Shown: positions 4,510 to 22,474 of the stretch, one piece after another
Numbering within the stretch: position 1 is the first letter of the stretch
How the letters are laid out: every line of letters starts with the position of its first letter
IMG/VR virus record: IMGVR_UViG_3300021437_000001
Coordinates: 1 to 64,000 of that record
From: a virus
Direction: 5' to 3' (one strand)
DNA: 64,000 nucleotides
Program-made: the position numbers and the translations under genes
Notes under the pieces: model-generated
The model's input: only the letters and a program-made list of their open reading frames with translations
Told to the model about the DNA's origin: nothing
Databases searched by the model: none

Positions 4510-5175
4510 ATGAGTAAAGATCCAAAGTCGTTTGCTAAAAATTTTAAGAAATCTTATGATTATCCTGACAGCTTAGTCATCATTGACGCTAAAGACCAGC
4601 AAGCTGCTGAAGAAGGCACTCCTACGGCTTTTTTAGAGAAGATAACTTCTCAGATGCGTAAGGGTGATACCATTCATAAAATTCAAATGCAAAAAGGAAT
4701 ACTCACTTTAGCGAATAAAGATTCAGCCCTTTATAGCGGTTTTTTTACAGATGGCGAAGGTCAAATAGTTGAAAAGTTTGAAGCACACACTTTAGCAATG
4801 ATAGCTAAAACTTTAATTGTTAAAGGTCGAGCCACAGATTACGATTTGTATGGCGAGGCTGAAGATTACGAACCAGAAGCTCCAATAGCGCCAGTTGCGC
4901 CTACAAGTGCTGGACAACCTCAAGTAACTATTAAATTTGGTGATGTTGAGATTCAATTAAGAAAGTCAGTTCGTCAATTCATTGACGATTTTAAACAAAA
5001 GAATGTCGAAGATGAGCTTATGAAAAAGGCTCTAAAGTCTTGGAGACGCTCACAAACATTTAATCGTTATGAATCTGATAGAGAAGCTGCTCAAGCTATC
5101 ATTTCAAATTGGGAAGCCAATGGTGAAAGTTTTAGTCAAACCTTATTTGCTATACGCCAGATGTCGAGGAAGTAA
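4510..5175 (+). CDS. Hypothetical protein, two-part with proline-rich linker
   Basis: 221 residues. An N-terminal alpha/beta part (to about residue 115) and a C-terminal helical part (KSWRRSQTFNRYESDREAAQAI) are joined by an acidic, Pro/Ala-rich linker (APIAPVAPTSAG). No known family. It overlaps the next gene by one base (TAATG junction), so expression is coupled. Position among virion genes suggests a structural or assembly protein. Confidence 0.45.
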   Translation: MSKDPKSFAKNFKKSYDYPDSLVIIDAKDQQAAEEGTPTAFLEKITSQMRKGDTIHKIQMQKGILTLANKDSALYSGFFTDGEGQIVEKFEAHTLAMIAKTLIVKGRATDYDLYGEAEDYEPEAPIAPVAPTSAGQPQVTIKFGDVEIQLRKSVRQFIDDFKQKNVEDELMKKALKSWRRSQTFNRYESDREAAQAIISNWEANGESFSQTLFAIRQMSRK

Positions 5176-10060: not shown

Positions 10061-11872
10061 ATGTCAATTAGAGTACCTTTCAACGGAGCGAGTCTAGCTA
10101 AACCTGGATCATATTCCAAGACCACAGTCAATTTGTCTGGTGGATTTCCGCTTGCTGCAACTGGCGTTATTGCCATTGTTGGCGAAGCTCTTGGTGGTGC
10201 CCCTGGATCTAGCGATGGCGTGCAAACGTTTACTAGCGAAGATATTGCTAGCTTGATCGCCAAATATAAATCAGGACCAATTGTAGATGCTGCAAGATTA
10301 CTAGTAGCTCCTGCTCGTGATAATAGAGTTCCAAATGGAGCTTCTATGATTCGAGTTTGGAAAACTAACGCATCAACAAAAGCTTCTAAAATTCTAAATA
10401 ATGCTGCTGCGGCTAGTCTGTTTACAGTATCTTCTTTGAATTATGGTGAAGATGAAAATTTAATCAATATTACAGTTTCTAACGGTTCTTCTGCTAATAA
10501 TAAAGTTTTGACTATTAAGAAGAATGGTGTTACTGAAACTTTAAGTGAAAATGCTTACGATGCTGTACTGCAACTTCAATATTCTGGTGCAGATGCTTCT
10601 TGCTCTTTGACGATTCAAAATGTTGCTGGAGTTAAAACTTTAGTTGCTTCCACAAGCTCGACACCTGCTGATAATCTTAGTATTCCGCTGGCTGGTAAAT
10701 CTGTTCAAGATTTAGTAGACATTGTTGATTCAAATGCTTCTTATGCAGCTTCGACTTCTTTTAGAAATGCAAAATCGGTATCTGCTGCTTCTTTAGATTT
10801 TATTAGCACAGCTTTGGATATTAAAGCTTCTGCTAAAACTTTACGAAGAGCGCAACAAGAATTGTTGGACATCGTAGCAAGTCAATCTCAATTGATTTCA
10901 ATGTCTCAATCCGCAAATGCCGAAGGACTTCCTGCTAACGTAGGACCTGTGTTTTTGGCTGGTGCTGTCAGAGGAGCTTCTGCTAATTCAAATTTCCAAG
11001 CTGGTTTTGATGCTCTTTTAGCCGTTAGATGTAACGAAGTTGTTCCATTGGTATCGCAAGATGCTTCTGCCTTAATTTCTAGTGGAGATACTGATCCTGC
11101 ATCTTCGTTTACAATTGATGCTGTAAATCTGCAAGCTCTTACACATTGCATCACTGCTTCAAATACTAAGAATCGTTCTGAGAGAAACTGTTATGTTTCT
11201 AAGAAAGCTTCTTTTGCTGCTGCACAAGCTGCTGCTCAAGCTTTAAATCACGAACGAGCTTCGATGCTTTTCCAAGACGTTCAAGTTCTTGGTGCAGATG
11301 GCAATTTAAAACTTGTTGATCCTTGGGCTGCTGCTTGTATGGTAGCTGGAATTCAAGCTGGAACTGAAGTAGGAACTCCTGCTACTTTTAAGTTTGTTAA
11401 TGCCAATGCTATTAAGCATCAAGACTACAATTCTAAAACTCAAGTTGATTTGGCAATTGATGCTGGACTTCTACCTTTAGAAGAAGCAGACAGTGGTGGA
11501 TTTCGAGTTGTTGTTCATAACACTACTTATGGAATTGATGCAAATTTTGTTTGGAATAGAGTTTCTGTTGTTGAGGCTGCTGACTATGTTGCTTACAATT
11601 TGAGACAACAATTAGAAGCGATTTTTATTGGTAACAAAGCTGCTACCGGAACTGCGCAATCAATTAAAAATACGATTATCTCTATCATGGATTCTTTCTT
11701 ACGAGCGAATATCATAGTAGGAGATGACACAAATAAAAATCTTGGCTTTAAAGATCTTAACGTTGTCCTAAACGGAAATACCGCTTATGTTGATGTTACT
11801 ATCACTCCAGTTCAAGGTGTCGATTTCATCCTGAATCGTATAACTCTAGATAACATTCGACAATCAGCGTAA
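10061..11872 (+). CDS. Tail sheath protein
   Basis: 603 residues, preceded by GAGGGAG. The N-terminal RVPFNGASLAKPGSYSKT opening, the following FPLAATGVIAIVGEALGGAPG strand-turn and the C-terminal domain (VVVHNTTYGIDANFVWNRVS, then FLRANIIVGDD and VNFI-type end strands) are the layout of myovirus sheath proteins: a variable outer domain inserted in a conserved core. The sheath subunits contract around the tube during injection. Ala/Ser-rich composition of the middle part (about residues 110-300) marks the exposed insertion. Followed after 12 bases by an Ala-rich gene and then the tube gene. Confidence 0.88.
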   Translation: MSIRVPFNGASLAKPGSYSKTTVNLSGGFPLAATGVIAIVGEALGGAPGSSDGVQTFTSEDIASLIAKYKSGPIVDAARLLVAPARDNRVPNGASMIRVWKTNASTKASKILNNAAAASLFTVSSLNYGEDENLINITVSNGSSANNKVLTIKKNGVTETLSENAYDAVLQLQYSGADASCSLTIQNVAGVKTLVASTSSTPADNLSIPLAGKSVQDLVDIVDSNASYAASTSFRNAKSVSAASLDFISTALDIKASAKTLRRAQQELLDIVASQSQLISMSQSANAEGLPANVGPVFLAGAVRGASANSNFQAGFDALLAVRCNEVVPLVSQDASALISSGDTDPASSFTIDAVNLQALTHCITASNTKNRSERNCYVSKKASFAAAQAAAQALNHERASMLFQDVQVLGADGNLKLVDPWAAACMVAGIQAGTEVGTPATFKFVNANAIKHQDYNSKTQVDLAIDAGLLPLEEADSGGFRVVVHNTTYGIDANFVWNRVSVVEAADYVAYNLRQQLEAIFIGNKAATGTAQSIKNTIISIMDSFLRANIIVGDDTNKNLGFKDLNVVLNGNTAYVDVTITPVQGVDFILNRITLDNIRQSA

Positions 11873-11884
11873 TCGAGGTAGATA

Positions 11885-12358
11885 ATGGCTCTTACTGATA
11901 AACAAAAAGCAGAATTAGACATTGCGATGGGCAGCAAAAAAGCTGCCGATGCTTTAGTTGCAAAATTGGACGCTAATGCTGCTCTTAATGATAAAGAATT
12001 TAAACAACTTGAGATTGCTTTGGCAGATAAAAAAGCAGCAAAAGAAGTATCCGAGGATATTCCTGCTCAGGCGTCTGCGGATGTCGCTGCAATAGCTGCT
12101 GCTCAAGCAGATGTAGATAGTGCGCAAGCTGCTGTCGTTTCAGCTCAAGCTGCTTTGGATGCTGATCCAGGTAATCCTGTGTTAGTAGCCGCATTAGCTG
12201 CTGCTCAAGCAGATCTTGCTGCTAAACAAGCAATCTTAGCTTCTGCACAAGCAGTTCAAGCTAAAGATCAAATTTCCGAAAGAACTAAAAAAGTTTTAGA
12301 CATTGCAATGGCATCGAAAGATGGCGGCAGTGCTCTGAAAGCTGAAATTGAAAAATAA
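11885..12358 (+). CDS. Ala-rich repetitive protein between sheath and tube
   Basis: 157 residues. A motif occurs three times in varied form: LDIAMGSKKAADALVAKLDA near the start, LEIALADKKAAKEV after it, and LDIAMASKDGGSALKAEIEK at the end. A highly Ala/Gln-rich coiled stretch (about residues 60-125, AAQADVDSAQAAVVSAQAAL) lies between. It begins 12 bases after the sheath stop. Most phages have tube directly after sheath, so this insertion is unusual. Possible roles are tail assembly or a minor virion part. Function unknown. Confidence 0.55.
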   Translation: MALTDKQKAELDIAMGSKKAADALVAKLDANAALNDKEFKQLEIALADKKAAKEVSEDIPAQASADVAAIAAAQADVDSAQAAVVSAQAALDADPGNPVLVAALAAAQADLAAKQAILASAQAVQAKDQISERTKKVLDIAMASKDGGSALKAEIEK

Positions 12359-12370
12359 TAGGCAAATAGA

Positions 12371-12405
12371 ACGTAAACCCCTAGCCTGTTTTACTTATTA
12401 GGGTT
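12371..12405 (+). promoter_or_regulatory. Hairpin ahead of the tube gene
   Basis: AACCC-C-TA (12376-12383) can pair with TAGGGTT (12399-12405), giving seven pairs with one bulge and a 15-base loop. There is no T-run after it, so it is not a standard terminator. It could be an mRNA processing or stability element separating sheath and tube translation. The ACGTAAACC at 12371-12379 recurs at 12913-12921 on the other side of the tube gene. Confidence 0.3.
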
Positions 12406-12421
12406 GTAAAGGAGAAATAAA

Positions 12422-12835
12422 ATGAGTCAAACTTCAACTGGCGCAAGGATTGTATTTAGAGTTAATGGTCAAAAGGTAGCTTTTGCCAATTCTTTGAATT
12501 ATACTGTAGCGCACGCCCATCAACCTGTCGATGTTCTTGATCAATTGGAACCAGCAGAATATGCTGAGACTGGTTATACTGTAAATTTTAGTGCAACTCA
12601 ATTTCGAGTGTCAAATCAATCTGCTATGGCTCTAGGCTTGCGACCTCGTTTGCAAGACATCCTTACGCAGCCAGAGTTGACTGCGGAATTAGTTGACCGT
12701 ATCACTGGAGCCACTTTAATGTTAATCCAACGAGTAAAATGTACTCAAGAGGATTTTAACGTTGATGCTAGGTCTTTAGGCCAAACTACTTTGTCTTTTG
12801 TTGGAATTAAACAAGATGACGAAGGCTCTTTATAA
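12422..12835 (+). CDS. Tail tube protein
   Basis: 137 residues, preceded by AAAGGAG. Sequence features: TGARIVFRVNGQKVAFANSL (strand-turn-strand), then YAETGYTVNFSATQFRVSN and a C-terminal CTQEDFNVDARSLGQTTLSFVG. This matches the beta-barrel tube subunits of contractile tails (XkdM/gp19-type length). It follows the sheath gene after the Ala-rich gene and precedes the chaperone and tape-measure genes, the standard order. The tube forms the channel for DNA delivery. Confidence 0.75.
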   Translation: MSQTSTGARIVFRVNGQKVAFANSLNYTVAHAHQPVDVLDQLEPAEYAETGYTVNFSATQFRVSNQSAMALGLRPRLQDILTQPELTAELVDRITGATLMLIQRVKCTQEDFNVDARSLGQTTLSFVGIKQDDEGSL

Positions 12836-12967
12836 GCTGAAACGATAGGCTTATAGGTTCTAACCTGACGGCGCACGAAAATAGTACCTCTAGCGCCCAG
12901 GAATGGGGTAAAACGTAAACCACTTGCTGATAGTCTGACCGGAAGGGCTGAATAGACAGAACCAGCA
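12833..12967 (+). ncRNA. Structured non-coding stretch after the tube gene
   Basis: The 200-base gap before the endonuclease start has no good frame but several possible stems. TAAGC (12833-12837) pairs with GCTTA (12849-12853). GGCGC (12870-12874) pairs with GCGCC (12893-12897). TGCTG (12925-12929) pairs with CAGCA (12963-12967) and encloses GTCT/AGAC and a CC-GGAA-GG hairpin with a GNRA loop (12939-12946). This could be a processed RNA, a 3' UTR structure or the remains of an intron. Class not assigned. Confidence 0.35.
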
Positions 12968-12972
12968 TTTAC

Positions 12973-13007
12973 AAGGGTTAGACTTAGGTCTAGCCCTTTA
13001 CTTTTTG
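12973..13007 (+). terminator. Rho-independent terminator after the tail tube
   Basis: AAGGGTTAGAC (12973-12983) pairs with GTCTAGCCCTT (12988-12998) over 11 bases with one G-T pair and a TTAG loop, followed by TACTTTTTG. It would end transcripts from the sheath and tube genes just before the homing endonuclease cassette. Confidence 0.75.
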
Positions 13008-13024
13008 TAGCATTATGTTATACT
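12997..13024 (+). promoter_or_regulatory. Promoter of the homing endonuclease gene
   Basis: TTTACT (12997-13002), a 16-base spacer and TATACT (13019-13024) with a TG extension (13016-13017) form a sigma70-type promoter. The -35 box overlaps the T-run of the terminator, so the cassette has a compact end-then-restart layout. Expected transcription start is near 13031. Confidence 0.55.
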
Positions 13025-13040
13025 CCTTATATGGAGTATA
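13019..13040 (+). repeat. Perfect palindrome joining -10 box and Shine-Dalgarno
   Basis: TATACTCC (13019-13026) and GGAGTATA (13033-13040) are exact inverted repeats around a 6-base loop. The left arm contains the -10 box and the right arm contains the GGAG ribosome binding site for the ATG at 13045. It could act as a protein operator or as an RNA hairpin that hides the ribosome binding site in read-through transcripts. Confidence 0.6.
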
Positions 13041-13044
13041 TTTC

Positions 13045-13722
13045 ATGCTTGGAAAATTATATAAAATTACATTAGACGACCGAGTTATATATGTTGGCCA
13101 AACTTTGCAGGAATTAACTGCTCGCATAGCGCAACACAAAAAATCTGACTCTTTAGTCGGAAGAAAGATTAATAAGGGCTATGATTTAAAATTTGAGATT
13201 ATAAAAGAAGTGCCTATAAGCGAATTAGATGCTTGGGAATGTTTTTATATAGGATATTTTAATACATTGCATCCAAATGGTCTAAATTTGCAATTACCAT
13301 TTAGTTCTGCGAGAATGACTGAAACCACTCGAAATAAGATTAGAAAATCTAAAACTTATGGAAAAGTTTATACAATAGATTTACAAGGAACCATCCTTGA
13401 GTTCGAATCTGGAAGACATGCTGCCTTGTCGTTAAAGATAAATATTGCGCATATTTACGAATGTATTAATGGCAAGCGTTATGCAGCGGGAGATAGGGCC
13501 TTCTGGAGAGAAGGTCAACAACCTAAAAATGTAGCAGATATTAGACAAAGACCAAGAATAGCAGTATGTACCGTAAATACAAATACAGGAGAACAACAGC
13601 ATTTCCCAAGTGTCTATTCTTGTGCTATGATGTTAAATATAGACCCAGCAACAATTTGCAAAGGTCTAAAAGATAAAAAAGAAATAAAGTATAAACATTA
13701 TAAAATAAGGAAGGCTATATGA
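13045..13722 (+). CDS. GIY-YIG homing endonuclease with NUMOD-like repeats
   Basis: 225 residues. An in-frame ATG at 13015 falls in the promoter, so ATG 13045 with GGAG is chosen. The N-terminal nuclease has LYKITLDDRVIYVGQT (variant GIY-YIG), ELTARIAQH (conserved Arg) and AWECFYIGYF (catalytic Glu). Two DNA-binding units follow, each with S-x-x-x-A and I-x-x-C/I-x-G patterns: KVYTIDLQGTILEFESGRHA and TNTGEQQHFPSVYSCAMML, like NUMOD1. Such enzymes cut allele DNA and copy themselves by repair. It sits between tube and chaperone genes and its stop overlaps the next ATG by 4 bases. Confidence 0.85.
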   Translation: MLGKLYKITLDDRVIYVGQTLQELTARIAQHKKSDSLVGRKINKGYDLKFEIIKEVPISELDAWECFYIGYFNTLHPNGLNLQLPFSSARMTETTRNKIRKSKTYGKVYTIDLQGTILEFESGRHAALSLKINIAHIYECINGKRYAAGDRAFWREGQQPKNVADIRQRPRIAVCTVNTNTGEQQHFPSVYSCAMMLNIDPATICKGLKDKKEIKYKHYKIRKAI

Positions 13723-14123
13723 TCAATACGTTACCAAGCATGGAATTTTCATTTTCAATTGACGTAAAGGGTTCTGACACTGGACAACAATTTCAAGGTA
13801 CTTTTACCTACAAACGTCCAAATTTGCGTCTAAAATCTAATGCTGCAAAACTGGCTGCACGGTTAAATGAAGATCTTCGCAATCTTGATGAAGATACTAA
13901 ATTCATTCATGACGTTTTAGCAAATCTCCGATTCTCTTTAATTCAAACTCCTGATTGGTGGCAAAAGTCTGACTTTGGCCTAGAGCTTTATGATACGAAT
14001 GTAATATTCGATATTTACAAGGCTTGTATTGATTTTGAAAATGCTTGGACTGAGAAAGTCTGGGGAAATCAAGAGAAAGCCAAAGAAGAGCTTAAAGAAG
14101 CTGTCAAAGCTAAAGCCAAGTAG
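13719..14123 (+). CDS. Putative tail assembly chaperone, first gene
   Basis: 134 residues, start within the endonuclease stop (ATGA overlap) with AAGGAAGG upstream. Contains FSFSIDVKGSDTGQQFQGTF, a helix NAAKLAARLNEDLRNLDED and SLIQTPDWWQKSDFG, ending in a Lys/Ala-rich helix. Position between tube and tape measure, and the two-gene arrangement, are those of tail assembly chaperones that bind the tape measure during tail assembly. Sequence alone does not prove the role. No -1 slippery site connecting it to the next gene was found. Confidence 0.55.
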   Translation: MINTLPSMEFSFSIDVKGSDTGQQFQGTFTYKRPNLRLKSNAAKLAARLNEDLRNLDEDTKFIHDVLANLRFSLIQTPDWWQKSDFGLELYDTNVIFDIYKACIDFENAWTEKVWGNQEKAKEELKEAVKAKAK

Positions 14124-20637: not shown

Positions 20638-20646
20638 TGCTATAAT
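20638..20646 (+). promoter_or_regulatory. Extended -10 promoter candidate
   Basis: TGCTATAAT: a TG extension and perfect -10 box TATAAT (20641-20646) in the 45-base gap before the gene at 20678. No -35 at normal distance; TTGAGT at 20612-20617 is 23 bases from the -10. The same TGCTATAAT occurs at 39115-39123. Confidence 0.5.
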
Positions 20647-20677: not shown

Positions 20678-22474
20678 ATGGCGTTTGAATTCCCAACGTC
20701 CGTTTCGGGCGCAGGTCCATTTAATCAAATAGTAGAGACTTTTAATAAGTCTCTAAATGCTATATTTGGGCTGACTGGTGACAAAAAGTCTGCTGGAAAA
20801 CTGCAAACTATTTCAGATCTTATGAAGTCAGATGGTGTTGGGCATCAACACTTTGTATCAGAGAATTGGACTGGTAATACAGATCGAAAAAGCAATAAAT
20901 TGCGTTATGGATTCACCACTGTTAATGTCAGTAATATTTCAAAAGGTTTAAATTTTAGTAGTGATAATAAGGGGCAACCAGACACTTATTATTTAGACAT
21001 TCCTCCACAAGCCATATCTCAGAAAGAGTTATTTGCAACTAATATTACGGCCTCTCGTAGAGGTGTAGTAGTTGAGTCCGAAGGTGTTATATTCAAGGAT
21101 CTAGTGATTGCAGGCACAACAGGCGTGTATCCAGGACCTCGTGAAGGTTTTGGAGGAAATCAAGCAAATTTTTCAAATCCTTTAAGCGCCCCAACAAAAG
21201 CTGGAGGTGTCCAAGCAAATGGCACGTCAAAAGCTTCCACTGTGGTTTCTGGATATGCAGAATTTCTAGGATTAAGAGCTTATTTTTTAAAATATGCCAA
21301 CGATAAAGTAAAAAAACGAGGAAATCATTTTTTAGTTTTTATTAACGAAAAAGATCAACAAGCTTTGGTCGTAGAGCCTTTAGAGTTTACAATGGAACGT
21401 AATTCTAAAAATCCAATGCAATATCAATATAGAATTGTTTTGAAATGTATAACTACAATTGATGCTTTATTTGCGGCAGATCAAGAAGCAAATCGAGACC
21501 CTGGAATTATTTTAAATGATATTGTAAATATTTCACGAAATGCTGTAGCAGCTATTCAGCAGTTTCGAGCGGCTGTAGGTGCTACCAACCGTCTGGTTCA
21601 ATCTATATCTCAAGAAATAGACAAGACATTTATACAACCCCTTCGTCTTTTAGGCACCGCTCTGAATGACGTAGCAGATGCTAGATCAAATATATTAGCC
21701 GTACCAACAGCATTACAGAGAAATTTGAACGAGGCACTTTTAACAATACAAGAATCAAGATTTGAAAAAAGTAGATCGGAAATGAGTAGGGAGATTAAAA
21801 TAAACACACAAAACCCCTCTCGGCCACAAACTCCCGCAGACGTTAAATCTGGGAAAATTTCAGAAAGAGGTTCTACTGACGCCTACACTTCAAAGAAACT
21901 TTTAGATAAAAGTCAAGCAGAGAACTTTGTAAACTCGGCTGTGCAAACATTAGAACAATCGTCAGTTAACCCATTGTCCAAAAGCTTTGTTCAGGATTTA
22001 AGAGATAAAGCGCAAGCGTTGGCCAATGATATAGCAGACACAGTTAATCTAGGTAATGCTGATTTTAATACAATACAGAATAGGTCTCCATCATTCATAC
22101 CTAATCCTTTGCGCTCTGCCACCTCAAATGAGTTTTTATTGCTAGGACAGACTTTAAAAGTAGTTGCGGTTTTGAATCAAGTATTAGCAACAAATAATTT
22201 ATTTTTAATTAACGTTCAAGCGACTTTTGATAATGATCAAAGTTTATTGCAAAATATAGCAACATTACAAGCGCCTACAACAGTTAGAGAAATAGTAATA
22301 GGTCAGAATGATACACTGGAACGTATTGCTTTACGAGAGTACGGAAATGTAGCCCGCTGGGTAGATTTGGCAGTTTTAAATAATCTAAAATATCCTTATA
22401 TCGCAGATAACCCTTCTGATCCTAGAATTTCTGGTGTAAAAGTGTACGGCGAAAAACTTTTAATAGGTAATTAA
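20678..22474 (+). CDS. Baseplate protein with C-terminal LysM-like domain
   Basis: 598 residues. The C-terminal 60 residues contain IVIGQNDTLERIALREYGNV, WVDLAVLNNLKYPYI and VKVYGEKLLIGN, a LysM-like pattern (DTLxxIA ... LNNL ... GxxLxI) typical of tail proteins near the hub such as XkdP/gp53 types. The N-terminal and middle parts are mixed (TNITASRRGVVVESEGVIFK and a long helical segment at about 300-500). In other phages this domain helps attach the wedge to the hub or binds peptidoglycan. Expressed from its own promoter candidate. Confidence 0.6.
   Translation: MAFEFPTSVSGAGPFNQIVETFNKSLNAIFGLTGDKKSAGKLQTISDLMKSDGVGHQHFVSENWTGNTDRKSNKLRYGFTTVNVSNISKGLNFSSDNKGQPDTYYLDIPPQAISQKELFATNITASRRGVVVESEGVIFKDLVIAGTTGVYPGPREGFGGNQANFSNPLSAPTKAGGVQANGTSKASTVVSGYAEFLGLRAYFLKYANDKVKKRGNHFLVFINEKDQQALVVEPLEFTMERNSKNPMQYQYRIVLKCITTIDALFAADQEANRDPGIILNDIVNISRNAVAAIQQFRAAVGATNRLVQSISQEIDKTFIQPLRLLGTALNDVADARSNILAVPTALQRNLNEALLTIQESRFEKSRSEMSREIKINTQNPSRPQTPADVKSGKISERGSTDAYTSKKLLDKSQAENFVNSAVQTLEQSSVNPLSKSFVQDLRDKAQALANDIADTVNLGNADFNTIQNRSPSFIPNPLRSATSNEFLLLGQTLKVVAVLNQVLATNNLFLINVQATFDNDQSLLQNIATLQAPTTVREIVIGQNDTLERIALREYGNVARWVDLAVLNNLKYPYIADNPSDPRISGVKVYGEKLLIGN

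Follow-up and report, generated by a model that had tools for sequence, protein, structure and literature searches.

A homing endonuclease cassette in a phage tail-gene spacer with a hairpin predicted to hide its Shine-Dalgarno sequence

The stretch from 13009 to 13722 in the genome of an uncultured phage is best read as a free-standing homing endonuclease cassette with a T4-style hairpin, which would hide the Shine-Dalgarno sequence (SD) and restrict production of the nuclease to transcripts from its own promoter; we assign this reading a probability of roughly 0.6. It is supported by the sequence, by the insertion as seen against empty-site relatives and by the predicted folds with their rank among the genes of the phage; the transcript start, an effect on translation and homing by the nuclease are what we infer. 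According to the proposed mechanism, the cassette would have entered an insulated spacer flanked by a tube-like gene and a tail assembly chaperone gene, where a terminator should stop most RNA of the tail operon. Remaining read-through RNA with both arms of a palindrome would form a hairpin burying SD and start codon, and no nuclease would result. The extended -10 box of the cassette lies in the left arm, and RNA starting at about 13031 would lack this arm, expose the SD and be translated. Since read-through RNA would bury the SD while RNA from about 13031 would expose it, the nuclease would be made only on firing of its own promoter.

Organization of the locus

The window analysed comprises the first 64 kb of the 117,954-base IMG/VR record of this phage. 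The nuclease gene sits intergenically, with the tube-like gene upstream and the chaperone gene downstream, the ATG of the latter overlapping the nuclease stop codon (ATGA). The following features are referred to below:

10061-11872: tail sheath gene (PHROG 279, E 1e-46)
12422-12835, plus strand: tail tube-like gene (PHROG 985 virion structural protein, E 1.5e-8)
12833-12972, plus strand: conserved structured non-coding stretch 3' of the tube-like gene (identity to relative L002, two-sided pair changes)
12973-13006, plus strand: intrinsic terminator with an 11-bp stem (12973-12998) and a T tail
12997-13002, plus strand: -35-like TTTACT belonging to the pre-existing terminator (identical bases in empty relatives)
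13009-13722, plus strand: inserted cassette of promoter core, palindrome and nuclease gene (loss of L002 identity)
13010-13048, plus strand: extended hairpin with outer GCAU/AUGC helix (RNA fold)
13016-13024, plus strand: extended -10 element TGT-TATACT (comparable element at the chaperone gene in nearly all empty relatives)
13019-13026, plus strand: left arm TATACTCC, with anti-SD and -10 box
13023-13044, plus strand: candidate operator resembling the chaperone start of the empty-site relatives L002 and L004, not that of L003
13031, plus strand: expected transcript start, as the 7th base past the -10 box
13033-13040, plus strand: right arm GGAGTATA with SD GGAG
13045-13722, plus strand: GIY-YIG nuclease with NUMOD-type DNA-binding region, 225 aa (Pfam, PHROG)
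13603-13631, plus strand: possible embedded chaperone promoter TTCCCA-17-TATGAT with TG (motif prediction)
13719-14123, plus strand: tail assembly chaperone gene (PHROG 25000/1038, E 1e-4; 87.5% aa identity to L002)

The label "tube" for 12422-12835 was deduced from its placement after the sheath gene. An Rfam scan of 12000-14000 returned nothing beyond one chance snoRNA match, and hence no known intron or RNA family is indicated there.

The nuclease

The intact open reading frame of 225 aa combines a GIY-YIG catalytic domain (PF01541, E 7.6e-5, 23.4 bits against a cut-off of 22.6) with a separate DNA-binding region (PF22083, I-HmuI_NUMOD-like, E 3.5e-9, in two stretches) and matches the homing endonucleases of PHROG 314 (E 2e-11). 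By reading, residues Y6, Y16, R27, E65, and N81 stand at what we take to be the expected GIY-YIG catalytic positions. The single-sequence structure model was poor (pLDDT 41), and the best PDB folds for this model were the GIY-YIG domains of T4 EndoII and UvrC with E > 0.1; a PDB search by sequence gave no meaningful match. Close relatives of the nuclease were found in none of IMG/VR, the GTDB genomes, INPHARED, and G000, which leaves the nuclease hairpin with no orthologous copy for covariation, a point against the SD-hiding switch. A second GIY-YIG or HNH_3 gene was not detected at threshold in G000 by searches of which that with PF01541 was insensitive and missed the known gene too.

Insertion into a spacer that is empty in relatives

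For the tube-like gene, 16 relatives were collected, 15 of them with the full spacer and the closest, L002, with 99% aa identity. The nuclease is missing from the same spacer in all 15; 12 contain no nuclease there, while L008, L012, and L015 harbor a different cassette. From the tube stop codon to the T-tract of the terminator, 163/171 positions are identical to L002, compared with 360/414 for the tube coding sequence. This identity extends through TTTTTGT (13008), and the two phages next share a gene from 13719 on. At this place L002, L003, and L004 feature, instead of a nuclease, an extended -10 promoter and the chaperone SD. The cassette thus begins at about 13009, with the terminator doing second duty as its -35 region, and takes the place of the promoter and leader of the chaperone gene. 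L002-L004, whose site is empty, retain the terminator with one two-sided pair change; terminator and -35 are the phage's own and not the cassette's. The preceding stretch (12833-12972) is likewise structured and better conserved than the adjacent coding sequence, with two-sided pair changes in both helices; it has no Rfam match, and L002-L004 were the only relatives in which it was found.

The empty spacers show a related arrangement. In L002, L003, and L004, the bases immediately following the terminator are complementary to the chaperone SD (TGCTCCT/AGGAGCA, GCTCCTT/AAGGAGC, and TTCTCCT/AGGAGAA, respectively), with one change on both sides. For most relatives, folding predicts a chaperone SD that is concealed in read-through RNA and more open in RNA from the promoter; the difference from shuffles stands out in L002, L004, L005, and L011, whereas other relatives show it weakly and L016 not at all. 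A universal hairpin rule for the chaperone SD was therefore not adopted, as it holds only partially across the relatives. Since the empty relatives pair their chaperone SD similarly, the hiding of an SD in read-through RNA seems to be partly a property of the spacer, and it is suggested that the cassette may reproduce this silencing with arms of its own. A further dyad, TATCAT-GTGAT-ATGATA, was observed in L002 (about 4600-4625), where its right arm holds the chaperone -10, and at the same place in L003, L013, and L014.

Hairpin and accessibility of the Shine-Dalgarno sequence

The exact inverted repeats reported in the first-pass annotation were confirmed as perfect at exactly the positions listed above, with a 6-nt loop (TTATAT). 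It also held that the left arm carries the -10 box TATACT, extended by the TGT before it, and the right arm the nuclease SD, which is spaced 8 nt from the ATG at 13045. RNA folding added an outer helix absent from the first-pass annotation, in which 13010-13013 (GCAU) pairs with 13045-13048 (AUGC) and buries the start codon. Perfect 8-bp inverted repeats with loops of 3-10 nt occur 26 times in the genome and 16-40 times in five random controls; with the genome count at chance level, such a repeat is unremarkable by itself, and the unusual feature is the placement of the palindrome at the SD. The local fold around the nuclease start reaches z = -5.9. Among the 133 SD-bearing genes of the whole 118-kb record, the nuclease ranks lowest in SD accessibility (0.0003) and also in local folding energy at its start (-17.7 kcal/mol).

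Read-through RNA had been proposed to fold and hide GGAG, and folding predictions agree: the probability of an unpaired SD is 0.00, and 0/100 upstream shuffles came as low as the real sequence. The SD is accordingly predicted to be paired in upstream-started RNA, as in systems of the I-TevI type. The companion proposal that locally started RNA frees GGAG stands in part, as RNA from 13031 is more open (0.45 versus 0.00) but its SD only partly free. With these values and a -10 position conserved in relatives, silence in read-through RNA combined with expression from the local promoter is the explanation best supported by the predictions.

Two further start codons are present in this region. An in-frame ATG at 13015 was rejected as the nuclease start for lack of an SD and for its position upstream of the expected transcript start. 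The other, an AUG with which the transcript is expected to begin (13031), starts a 14-codon frame that is not in phase with the nuclease (13031-13075) and could compete for ribosomes.

Promoter and terminator

The overlap of the upstream terminator with the -35 box, noted in the earlier annotation, was found again: TTTACT (12997-13002) overlaps the end of the terminator. The promoter is arranged as TTTACT-16-TATACT with TGT directly 5' of the -10 box and matches the consensus at 9/12 positions with TG before the -10. As about six comparable sites are expected by chance in a scan of the region, this match alone proves nothing, and genome-wide enrichment of extended -10 boxes gave 7 sites, too few to use. 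The position of the -10 box agrees with the promoter conserved in empty-site relatives. As the extended -10 lies within the left arm and relatives possess a comparable promoter, the local promoter may yield RNA without the left strand. No T4 late box of the type TATAAATA is present, the element being TATACT with TG, and it would thus work like a T4 late-promoter hairpin without being one. Counting against the SD-hiding switch are the openness of only 0.45 in the short RNA, the 9/12 promoter with its common chance matches and the 14-codon frame behind the 5' AUG.

The same palindrome at other nuclease genes

A scan with the pattern TATACTCC-N3-9-GGAGTATA-N1-7-ATG retrieved 25 loci, nine of which feature an open reading frame of at least 100 aa at that ATG. 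These comprise seven SegE-type GIY-YIG genes, one HNH_3 gene (E 1.5e-9) and one unassigned frame; three of the seven SegE-type calls derive from a Pfam scan (E 1e-38 to 4e-40), the others being near-identical or 73-95% similar. As the seven SegE-type genes are mutually related, the nuclease genes among the nine frames represent about two independent lineages. In the control scan, for which the left arm was rotated, 10 loci were retrieved, with neither a frame of 100 aa nor a nuclease at any of them, and the recurrence of the palindrome before SegE-type GIY-YIG and HNH genes therefore counts for the SD-hiding hairpin. So do the hairpins of different sequence hugging the ATG in other SegE-type genes, e.g., ATACCTC/GAGGTAT, ACACCT/AGGTGT, and AATATACC/GGTATATT. 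Many more distant SegE-type genes feature no such hairpin, and column-wise covariation of SegE-type leaders was not counted, as shifting loop lengths disturb the alignment. The same palindrome was also seen in L022 (1292-1318), directly 3' of a tRNA-like end and 5' of a 57-aa frame.

Other cassettes in the spacer

The cassettes in L008 (3324-4940), L012 (4501-5886), and L015 (about 600-1985) occupy the same tube/chaperone spacer and encode other, mutually similar proteins with treble-clef zinc fingers and an MTES_1575-like nuclease region. They possess no SD, and exactly 6 nt separate the end of their -10 hexamer from the ATG or GTG; judging from this spacing, their messages would begin at the start codon and be leaderless. 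The ATG at 13031 of the present phage occupies the position corresponding to these start codons. We tentatively propose, as a generalization that may well fail, that the spacer serves repeatedly as a landing slot and requires each incoming cassette to be mute in read-through RNA, with two solutions, namely a -10-containing, SD-hiding hairpin here and SD-less, leaderless messages with the -10 set 6 nt before the start in L008, L012, and L015, and that expression of the essential chaperone gene has likewise passed to the cassette. To a specialist, the repeated use of the slot and the possible leaderless alternative may come as unexpected.

Alternative explanations

The palindrome might mainly be a DNA operator, by which the nuclease binds and shuts its own promoter like I-TevI, the RNA hairpin being secondary; this is rather unlikely, yet it is the strongest of the alternatives. 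Positions 13023-13044 resemble the chaperone start in L002 and L004 (TCCgTcTATGGAGcATA-cTTTCA in L004), and this similarity is the best match within both loci, equalled by shuffled leaders at frequencies of 0.001 and 0.0005. The chaperone start of the present phage has diverged at the matching place (score 7.0), as expected if a homing site was lost beside the nuclease, and the operator and homing site of I-TevI share 15/20 (PMC2988022). An I-TevI-like operator that imitates the homing site should leave such a pattern. However, L003, which is close and empty too, shows no resemblance to 13023-13044 (score 6.0), and the comparison is post hoc, having been made after the match was seen, and rests on two related sequences. 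Moreover, SegE-type hairpins hold their structure while the sequence varies, which suits an RNA element more than a DNA site of fixed sequence. The resemblance of part of the palindrome to the chaperone start in two empty-site relatives makes a protein operator possible, as a lead only.

Less probable still is that transcripts starting further upstream always contain the hairpin, resulting in a constant low level of nuclease and no switch. The modest promoter match and the frequency of chance matches are in line with this, whereas the extended -10 conserved in the spacer of relatives and the -10 placed exactly 6 nt before the start codon in other spacer cassettes argue for a local promoter. 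That the cassette landed beside a -10 box by chance and the palindrome has no role is very improbable, since perfect 8-bp repeats are indeed at chance level genome-wide but the SD ranks first of 133 genes in inaccessibility and the palindrome recurs at nuclease starts in unrelated phages.

Comparison with known systems

The T4 precedent invoked for hairpin silencing of homing endonucleases is real: an SD-hiding hairpin with an internal promoter is established for I-TevI, I-TevII, I-TevIII, and MobE, was proposed for SegB and also occurs at T4 e, soc, and 49 (PMC2988022, PMC3014915). The SD-hiding hairpin discussed here shares with the I-TevI-type systems an SD about 8 nt before the AUG, predicted here to lie in a hairpin on upstream-started RNA, and, putatively, a local promoter in the hairpin region which would give RNA without the left strand. 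In contrast, those nucleases are intron-encoded and use T4 middle or late promoters, whereas this element is intergenic with a sigma-70-like extended -10. A similar layout is seen in MobE of phage Aeh1 and SegB of T4, free-standing nucleases located between phage genes, each with a local promoter and a hairpin over its SD; T4 mobE is associated with a terminator as well, but protein (mobE being HNH), phage group, site, and promoter type differ. At T4 e, soc, and 49, read-through RNA likewise conceals the SD, and RNA from a promoter within the structure leaves it accessible, although these are ordinary phage genes and not a selfish nuclease. On the best reading, the mechanism itself is thus already known and the present case lies outside the phage group in which it was described.

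A regulatory trick of T4-like phages would thereby be extended to a different phage group, and empty and occupied versions of one site are now available for comparison. These render directly testable the rule that a free-standing homing gene has to stay silent in read-through RNA, including the possible second, leaderless solution.

T4 seg genes carry embedded promoters (PMC2988022). As at T4 segG/gene 32, the insert displaced the promoter of the downstream gene and may carry a replacement in its coding region (13603-13631), which here, unlike there, is a motif prediction only. Its extended -10, TGCTATGAT at 13623-13631, may serve the chaperone gene. Extended -10 boxes of the sequence TGCTATAAT were also observed at 20638 and 39115 of the window, about 40 nt upstream of the genes at 20678 and 39156, and are probably further promoters of this phage.
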